A program made the translations under genes and the position numbers. Below are positions 16,105 to 40,899 of a stretch of 40,899 nucleotides of DNA, in pieces; the stretch's first letter is position 1; the number at the start of each line of letters is the position of its first letter. The stretch comes from an uncultured Oscillospiraceae bacterium. GTDB lineage: Bacteria; Bacillota; Clostridia; Oscillospirales; Ruminococcaceae. Under the pieces are notes generated by a model. That model had not been told where the DNA came from. It worked only from the letters and a program-made list of their open reading frames with translations, and did no database searches. Location: the NCBI GenBank assembly GCA_949741215.1, contig CATJLA010000089.1, positions 1 to 40,899 on the forward strand, in the 5' to 3' direction.

Positions 16105-16698
16105 GTGAATAAACAGGCTCATCAGGAAGAACGTATCCTCAATTATATCAATGAGCGAATCGGGGAAGGGGTGCCCCCTTCTATCCGGGAGATTTGCAAT
16201 GATCTTTCCATCAAGTCCACCTCCACCGTCCACCGGTACTTGAAAATTCTGGAGGAAAAGGGCCTGCTGCTGCGGGATCAAAACCTGAACCGTTCCATCC
16301 GCTTAAGCCAGGAGAGAACGCTGCAGGTGCCTTTGGTGGGCACAGTTACCGCAGGCCAGCCCATTTTGGCAGTGGAGTCCATGGAGGGTTACATACCGTT
16401 TCAAACCAATTCTTACCGTCCGGAGGATCTGTTTGCCCTTCATGTGCGGGGGGAAAGCATGATTAACGCCGGCATTCTGGATGGGGACGTGATTATCGCC
16501 CGCAAAACCCCTACGGCAGCAAACGGTGAGATCGTAGTGGCATTGATCGAGGATGAAGCCACCGTTAAGCGGTTTTATAAGGAGAACGGCCATTACCGCC
16601 TCCAGCCGGAAAACGACACCATGGAGCCTATCTATACTGATTCGGTTTCCATTTTGGGCAAGGTTATCGCTTTGATGAGAAATTACGAGAGAGCGTAG
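16105..16698 (+). CDS. lexA: SOS repressor LexA
   Basis: A 197-aa LexA, normal length. An N-terminal winged helix (about 1-65, PPSIREICNDLSIKSTSTVH) is followed by the cleavage region with the Ala83-Gly84 bond (TAGQPI) and the S24-type protease fold with catalytic Ser118 (RGESMINAGILDGD) and Lys155 (EATVKRFYK). On DNA damage, RecA-stimulated self-cleavage inactivates it. The GTG start has GAAGGAG 10 nt upstream. The gene has its own promoter, likely operator and terminator. No SOS target gene was identified in the window. Confidence 0.96.
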   Translation: MNKQAHQEERILNYINERIGEGVPPSIREICNDLSIKSTSTVHRYLKILEEKGLLLRDQNLNRSIRLSQERTLQVPLVGTVTAGQPILAVESMEGYIPFQTNSYRPEDLFALHVRGESMINAGILDGDVIIARKTPTAANGEIVVALIEDEATVKRFYKENGHYRLQPENDTMEPIYTDSVSILGKVIALMRNYERA

Positions 16699-37058: not shown

Positions 37059-37514
37059 TTATTGTTTTTTGGGCAGCTTGCTGTTCAGCTGCCGGACATT
37101 CCGTTTACAGCTCCAGTATTCTGCCAGCCAGATTCCGGCGAAGATTAAGGCAAAAACCCCAAAATACTGTAAAAACCCGGCGGGGGAATGCTCCATCCAA
37201 TAGCAGAAGTAGGCGGTTGGCAGCATAAAGCAGGAAACGATCAGAAAATAGATCCCGGTTTGCTGCACCAGGTTCCAGCGTTCCACCTGCCAGATGGCGG
37301 AGCAGCCCCCAAAGGCGGCCCCCAGCAGCCCGCAAAGAAAGGTTTGCAGTATAACGGCATTTATTTCGCTGCCCATATCGGCTGCCATTTGGGGCACACA
37401 GGGGGAGTAGTACCCTCCGCCCCATATCAAAGAGACGGCGATAGAGATCAGCTGCCCGATGGTAACGCCCAGCGGGATGCCTAAACGAATGCGGGAGAGA
37501 ACGGTTCGCTTCAT
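37059..37514 (-). CDS. DUF3021 membrane protein
   Basis: A 151-aa protein with four transmembrane helices: about 10-31 (LGIPLGVTIGQLISIAVSLI), 54-72 (VILQTFLCGLLGAAFGGCSA), 86-105 (TGIYFLIVSCFMLPTAYFCY) and 114-132 (FLQYFGVFALIFAGIWLAEY). The topology and the basic tail fit DUF3021, a family almost always encoded after a LytTR regulator, as here (92-bp gap). It may sense or respond to membrane state; mechanism unknown. The ATG follows AAAAGGAGGC, spaced 12 nt or less. Confidence 0.85.
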   Translation of the reverse strand: MKRTVLSRIRLGIPLGVTIGQLISIAVSLIWGGGYYSPCVPQMAADMGSEINAVILQTFLCGLLGAAFGGCSAIWQVERWNLVQQTGIYFLIVSCFMLPTAYFCYWMEHSPAGFLQYFGVFALIFAGIWLAEYWSCKRNVRQLNSKLPKKQ

Positions 37515-37569
37515 AAATAAAAAGCCTCCTTTTCTATCAACTCAGTACAAGCTGTCATTTTGTTTTTCA

Positions 37570-37592
37570 GGACAAAACTGCCCGCTTACGTC
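37570..37592. repeat. GGAC element with inverted end
   Basis: GGACAAAACTGC (37570-37581) followed by ACGTCC (about 37588-37593). The GGAC and GTCC ends are complementary, so a small hairpin is possible. It lies between the DUF3021 and LytTR genes. Confidence 0.45.
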
Positions 37593-37605
37593 CTGAGAAA
37601 AAGAG

Positions 37606-38046
37606 CTAAACCCCCAGCAGCTTTTTTACCTTGGGCACATACCGGCGGGAGACATAAGAAACCTGCCCGTTTGTAAGCTTTACGCAGATGGTGCCGGTAA
37701 AGCTCATATCAAAGTGATCTACCTGATTCAGATTGATGATTTCGGAGTTGGAAATCCGTACAAAGCTGCGGGGCTCCAGCCTTGGCTCCAGCTCATACAG
37801 CCGCAGGTGCAGGGTATATTCTCCTTTTGGAGTAACGGCAAACACCTTGCCGGCAGCGGCGTATACCCGGATCAGCTCTGTTTGATCCAGCACCTCCACC
37901 TTACCTTCCCTGATGCCGGAAAGCACCTGGGGGCCTCCTTCCGAAAGCTTTTCCGCCAGGGCGCGCACCTCGTCTGTTACGGCGGCGGTTAAAATCAGCA
38001 GTTTGGGCTGGGGGTAATTGCTGTCCAGCTTAATTTCTACCTCCAT
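37606..38046 (-). CDS. LytTR-family DNA-binding regulator
   Basis: About 146 aa. The C-terminal LytTR domain (about 50-146) shows the usual strands: VEVLDQTELIRVYAAAGKVF, LHLRLYELEPRLEPRSFVRI, SNSEIINLNQVDHFD and VKLTNGQVSYVSRRYVPKVK. The N-terminal 45 residues are a short helix-strand region rather than a receiver domain, so it is not a phosphorylated response regulator. These stand-alone LytTR proteins usually repress their own operon with a DUF3021 partner, which follows here. ATG at 38046 has GGGAGGAG 5 nt upstream. Confidence 0.9.
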   Translation of the reverse strand: MEVEIKLDSNYPQPKLLILTAAVTDEVRALAEKLSEGGPQVLSGIREGKVEVLDQTELIRVYAAAGKVFAVTPKGEYTLHLRLYELEPRLEPRSFVRISNSEIINLNQVDHFDMSFTGTICVKLTNGQVSYVSRRYVPKVKKLLGV

Positions 38047-38220
38047 GGCTTCTCCTCCCTTCCGCATTCATTATAGCAGGCTTTCCCCGGGACGCAAGCG
38101 GTTTACTATAACCGGTTGTTTTGGCCCCATAATCGGCGTGTTTTGATGCTCCTGCCAAGCCTGTCCTCTCGGATTGTTTATAAAATCCCCTTATAATTTT
38201 TATGGTTTATTCATAGCGCT

Positions 38221-38251
38221 TTAACAACTCCCCAATAGAAAATGGTATAAT
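38221..38251 (+). promoter_or_regulatory. Promoter of the candidate small RNA
   Basis: TATAAT at 38246-38251 is perfect. TTAACA (38221-38226) is a possible -35 with a rather long 19-bp spacer. The start is near 38258. Confidence 0.6.
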
Positions 38252-38257
38252 AAAACC

Positions 38258-38370
38258 GTACTCAAAAACAAATAGCCGCAATGTTTTTGAGTATTGCTCT
38301 ACCCTCCTCAAAAACACACCTCAAACTCGCAAAAGACCAGCACCTTTTTTGGGTGCTGGTCTTTTGCTTG
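38258..38370 (+). ncRNA. Candidate bistable small RNA with anti-Shine-Dalgarno stretch
   Basis: An RNA of about 110 nt from promoter to terminator. Hairpin 1: TACTCAAAAACA (38259-38270) pairs perfectly with TGTTTTTGAGTA (38282-38293). The 10-mer CTCAAAAACA occurs again at 38307-38316 and can pair with the same TGTTTTTGAG (38282-38291), so two hairpins exclude each other. Between them lies CCCTCCTC (38302-38309), complementary to GAGGAGGG ribosome-binding sites. The terminator is a 14-bp stem (38331-38344 with 38352-38365) with TTTT on both sides. No coding frame. Confidence 0.62.
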
Positions 38371-38410
38371 TGGTAAAAAGTAAAAGTGAATAGGGAAGAA
38401 GGATGGAATA
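38371..38410 (-). repeat. Short dispersed repeat, copy C (inverted, shortened)
   Basis: On the minus strand it reads TTCCCTATTCAC, TTTTACTTTTTACC: copy A minus one 7-nt TACTATT-type unit. It lies between the small RNA terminator and parS site 3. Confidence 0.5.

Positions 38411-40535: not shown

Positions 40536-40899
<364 letters not shown>

Follow-up and report, generated by a model that had tools for sequence, protein, structure and literature searches.

The window, a 40,899-nucleotide stretch of DNA from an uncultured Oscillospiraceae bacterium, carries a real small RNA (sRNA) gene of about 110 nt, whose transcription we infer. The gene has been conserved within an order whose bacteria live mostly in the gut or in association with animals, and the conserved feature of its RNA is an always-exposed anti-Shine-Dalgarno (anti-SD) segment. 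We consider it likely that the RNA acts in trans to repress translation initiation under the control of a response regulator; in this it resembles csRNAs and LhrC, but it belongs to neither family. It probably lowers protein production once a membrane or cell-wall signal turns it on.

The RNA gene in the window

An extended -10 and an intrinsic terminator bracket the element (Table 1). The initial annotation had described both the TATAAT and the terminator, as well as two identical 10-mers, their complement and an open C-rich segment, and all of these were found where it had placed them. The element folds with a minimum free energy of -44.8 kcal/mol (z = -9.5), and 0 of 200 shuffles folded equally low. 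The duplicated 10-mer together with its complement arose in 0 of 20,000 mononucleotide shuffles of positions 38258-38325. A simple sigma-70/terminator scan listed neither the promoter nor the terminator of the window, because the -35-like TTAACA lies 19 bp off and the U-run is inside the terminator stem.

Table 1. Features of the sRNA gene, in positions of the window
Feature	Position	Strand	Description
Promoter box, period 11 bp	38199-38226	+	TTTATG (38199-38204), TTCATA (38210-38215), TTAACA (38221-38226)
Extended -10 TGGTATAAT	38243-38251	+	TATAAT (38246-38251) preceded by TGG; direct reading
Predicted transcription start	about 38257-38258		
5' hairpin of the RNA	38258-38294	+	13-bp stem, loop with conserved AGCCGCAA; from the fold
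10-mer CTCAAAAACA	38261-38270 and 38307-38316		two identical copies; direct reading
TGTTTTTGAG	38282-38291		complement of the 10-mer; direct reading
Box 1 CUACCCUCCUCA	38299-38310	+	exposed anti-SD segment
C-rich CCCTCCTC	38302-38309		open; direct reading
Box 2 ACACCUCAAAC	38316-38326	+	second exposed C-rich segment; ACCCCUCAAGC in the second family
Intrinsic terminator CAAAAGACCAGCACC-loop-GGGTGCTGGTCTTTTG	about 38329-38367	+	17-bp hairpin; from the fold

The element had also been described as free of any coding frame. A 31-codon ATG frame (38281-38376, read by eye) does overlap it, but relatives lack the ATG and differ in linker length by 1-3 nt; therefore, it is not a conserved coding frame.

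Distribution and conserved fold

Related DNA was found in several genera of the window's family (61 genomes searched). An exact pattern taken from the common core of these relatives, CTACCCTCCTCN{2,14}CACCTCAAA, occurs once per genome in 31 of 397 genomes of this family, representing 12 genera, and its reversed control gave 0 matches. According to a scan of named genomes, the carriers include Anaerotruncus colihominis, Angelakisella, Merdimmobilis hominis, Marasmitruncus and other Oscillospiraceae/Ruminococcaceae. A covariance search in related genomes, suggested in the initial annotation, recovered the family in 31 of 148 genomes of the window's family and in 68 of 150 genomes of a second family of the same order, which was found by the covariance model and has an altered box 2. 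A third family is represented by one member (G428) with the complete layout. The gene is present in a single copy per genome, second covariance-model matches being rare and mostly weak. A class-wide search with the covariance model beyond the order gave matches of at most 25 bits; those inspected have no promoter, most of them have no boxes, and they look like chance matches. One match on a viral contig (L073) and pattern matches at L033, L039, L052, L054 and L069 were also rejected as chance.

Since matches occur in Anaerotruncus, Angelakisella and Merdimmobilis, the order of both families is probably Oscillospirales, a major group of gut bacteria whose sRNAs are little described. With its model, promoter signature and exposed seed, the new family makes the regulator, the signal and the targets directly testable, and culturable hosts carry the RNA (A. 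colihominis and M. hominis).

All members share the three-repeat promoter, the 5' hairpin, the unpaired linker and the terminator. The linker is nearly invariant (CUACCCUCCUCA...ACACACCUCAAAC, or ACCCCUCAA in the second family). In 53 members the median probability of being unpaired is 0.92 for the anti-SD box, as its proposed exposure in the window implied, and 0.92-0.95 for the linker. Box 1 is invariant in 37 aligned members of the window's family, partly by construction, because the search pattern fixed it; the covariance-model hits of the second family needed no exact match to box 1, yet the model gives it weight. The terminator hairpins are located at the same place in relatives and are unrelated in sequence. 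Three second-family members (L207, L209 and L211) have an additional small hairpin between boxes 1 and 2.

The 5' hairpin is conserved as a structure. In a model-based alignment, which is fitted to structure, all six outer pairs have two-sided changes, 90.5% of cells are paired (75.5% in shuffles) and 52 cells are double-sided, whereas shuffles had 15 and slid controls no more than 7. The sequence-only alignment already had 15 double-sided cells versus 4.3. MAFFT combined with RNAalifold gave no structure for the first alignment because the 3' arm was misaligned, which was cured by the model-based realignment.

The initial annotation had proposed a switchable RNA, in which the arm at 38282-38291 would pair with one or the other 10-mer and thereby hide or free the anti-SD segment. 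The exact duplication in the window fits this proposal, and some relatives could form a weak alternative pairing (CTCAAAA or TACCC). However, the exact duplicate is confined to the window (1 of 39 members of its own family); with three more members sharing 8 nt, a duplication of at least 8 nt occurs in just 4 of 39, and in none of the 25 second-family members. The alternative fold is the weaker one in 53 of 53 members, with a median of -3.6 kcal/mol against -13.3 kcal/mol for the 5' hairpin, which covaries with its own left arm and forms first during transcription. A conserved switch is thus very improbable. The alternative fold of the window (-8.7 versus -13.2 kcal/mol) ranks with the stronger ones; it may play a part there, but not as a conserved function. 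The two parts that the initial annotation had expected to recur in relatives fared differently: the duplicate is lacking, whereas conservation of the RNA peaks in the C-rich segment.

Promoter and genomic neighbourhood

Alignment of 55 distinct promoters from both families revealed TTnAnA repeats with information peaks at -47, -36 and -25 from TATAAT, the last repeat being separated from it by a fixed 19 bp. TATAAT itself is nearly invariant among relatives, which were anchored there with no more than one mismatch. Tandem repeats with an 11-bp period upstream of the -10 correspond to the arrangement used by OmpR-family response regulators, and the sRNA promoter has three of them. From this repeat geometry, we infer an OmpR/PhoP-type response-regulator box. 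CiaR is an example of an OmpR-family regulator with such repeats (PMC3091779).

Matches to the box with two mismatches are located in several genera before an operon coding for an OmpR-type regulator and a kinase and before PBP1A-like genes. The regulator of this operon is closest to YycF/WalR, with a score of 254 bits, under the cut-off of 340. These two-repeat boxes before the YycF-like operon and PBP1A-like genes are hints that point to a cell-envelope regulator. The box ahead of the regulator/kinase operon, TTCAAAAA..TTCACC, is conserved 19 bp before TATAAT in several genera (L144, i.e., G000:C155; L139-L143 and L153) and looks like autoregulation. PBP1A-like genes at L145-L147, L149 and L150 have a similar box in front of them. 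A weight matrix found no second strong site in 2.18 Mb of M. hominis sequence: the sRNA box scored 51 bits, other sites at most 31 and the control up to 33, while the promoter of the M. hominis regulator operon, at 17 bits, was at noise level. As no other M. hominis promoter matches the box, there is no regulon to name the regulator, and a regulon shared with the YycF-like operon and PBP1A-like genes is a lead only. Phosphate control via a Pho box was considered and found no support, because the pstS regions of three relatives contain a single TTHAYA-N4-6-TTHAYA match, the place of which is unclear.

The same anti-SD sRNA could instead have a promoter under a factor of another type, such as DnaA. 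TTATTCACA, present in part of the members, fits the DnaA-box consensus; the repeats are unique within the 2.18 Mb of M. hominis sequence, and lexA adjoins the sRNA. On the other hand, three repeats with an 11-bp period have the geometry of OmpR-family tandem sites, and many members have TTCATA or TTTACA, both of which speak against such a factor. Overall, a factor outside the OmpR family seems unlikely.

Of 69 loci from both families, at least 50 have lexA upstream of the sRNA and transcribed divergently; a contig check added two more. LexA-type boxes were found near the sRNA promoter in just 9 of 69 members. In the window, lexA (16105-16698, + strand) is on the same contig 22 kb from the sRNA and turned round relative to it, as would follow from an inversion with one breakpoint between the two genes. 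A palindrome-like AAACAAATGTTT is located upstream of the window lexA. It is tempting, though rather doubtful, to see here an order-wide core regulator that would combine a dedicated envelope/stress promoter, an RNA mimicking the ribosomal anti-SD, broad mRNA repression and a coupling to lexA and DNA damage by location.

The downstream gene varies among relatives in both identity and strand, being often on the opposite strand; therefore, the RNA is free-standing, in agreement with the initial annotation, which had found no attached gene. That annotation had also offered a leader switch as an option. A cis-acting leader or attenuator would fit the position of the element, with its promoter and terminator, before a MATE gene (38619), the downstream gene in the window. 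However, relatives have no conserved same-strand gene directly downstream, as riboswitches and leaders do, and the conserved neighbour is the upstream divergent lexA. A leader is hence very improbable.

Next to the sRNA, the window contains a small regulatory pair on the - strand (37062-38067), a LytTR-domain gene and, after it, a DUF3021 gene; no such pair was found beside the sRNA in the relatives inspected. The contig breaks off inside a 16S rRNA gene, whose first part occupies 40536-40899 (+ strand); the sRNA of A. colihominis (L056) is likewise near an rRNA operon.

Predicted action and related small RNAs

We propose that an OmpR-family response regulator would bind the three repeats spaced by 11 bp and turn the promoter on. 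The 5' hairpin would shield the RNA and leave the linker free, and the terminator would end it. The linker (CUACCCUCCUC and the second C-rich box) could then pair in trans with Shine-Dalgarno (SD) regions of several mRNAs, presumably blocking ribosome entry.

sRNAs of this plan controlled by two-component systems are known: csRNAs (PMC3091779) and LhrC (PMC4132741). Like the csRNAs of the streptococcal CiaRH regulon, the new RNA has a 5' stem-loop and a terminator stem-loop flanking an unpaired anti-SD linker, and a direct-repeat response-regulator box before TATAAT. The boxes differ: the csRNA gene finder uses NTTAAG/TTTAAG-N5-TTTAAG about 10 bp before the -10, whereas the new family has TTYAYA-N5-TTMACA 19 bp before TATAAT and a third repeat, and does not match the CiaR box. 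csRNAs are also present in several copies per genome, as opposed to usually one here, and belong to a different bacterial order. LhrC of Listeria (RF00616, LisRK regulon) similarly blocks the SD with a single-stranded C-rich stretch between stem-loops and is controlled by a two-component system, where the new RNA has a putative response regulator. Unlike the new RNA, LhrC has three UCCC sites, two of them in loops, and five copies, and the window scores 19.2 bits against the RF00616 threshold of 110. RsaE/RoxS, FsrA and other C-rich sRNAs of Gram-positive bacteria also aim an unpaired C-rich segment at the SD; they gave no Rfam match to the new RNA, and their C-rich sites and promoter control are different. 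At the gathering score, Rfam 15 matched only rRNA and tRNA in the window and nine relatives, and matches at the E-value threshold (Thr_leader, LhrC and the like) were at chance level. A literature search found no Oscillospirales sRNA like this one; the supplementary tables of large RNA surveys were outside its scope, so an unnamed earlier prediction is possible. The new family also points to more than one origin of sRNAs with the csRNA and LhrC architecture.

We looked for targets at ribosome binding sites (RBSs), as the initial annotation had proposed. In M. hominis (2.18 Mb), the linker pairs ungapped at -14 kcal/mol or below with 287 of 1864 start regions, about three times as many as ten shuffled linkers (45-161). 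The linker read backwards reached 280, nearly as many, and therefore the excess reflects the anti-SD character of any CU-rich anti-SD strand. The 10-nt exact complement GAGGAGGGTA was found at RBSs in 26 places, about equal to the reversed-pattern control, i.e., without enrichment. The best long target candidate in M. hominis (491659) has no ortholog in most of the genomes bearing the sRNA.

Another pointer comes from the second family. csRNAs have an anti-start codon, mostly CAU, in the unpaired region. Such a CAU at the correct spacing is carried by 17 of 25 second-family members and by 0 of 39 members of the window's family. CAUGUUCUACCCUCCUC, the second-family segment with CAU, exactly complements GAGGAGGGUAGAACAUG, which makes up a complete RBS with start codon. 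As read from the sequence, this anti-start codon hints at RBS pairing more strongly than the duplex counts do.

Alternatively, the conserved sRNA could act as a decoy or sponge, its C-rich linker binding a protein or the ribosome and not selected mRNAs. This linker hardly varies over two families, yet the search yielded no conserved mRNA partner, and it resembles the anti-SD of 16S rRNA (CCUCCU). But the anti-start codon at the correct spacing in the second family would be needless for a decoy of either kind, and no known protein motif was recognised. We therefore see a decoy as a minor possibility and prefer repression of translation initiation by pairing with mRNAs.

GAGGAGGGTA is located just before the start codon in two genera (L172 and L184), in front of genes for related proteins with MxxYKPEG...GIIPR.... 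These proteins, S1-like by eye, are a possible conserved target.
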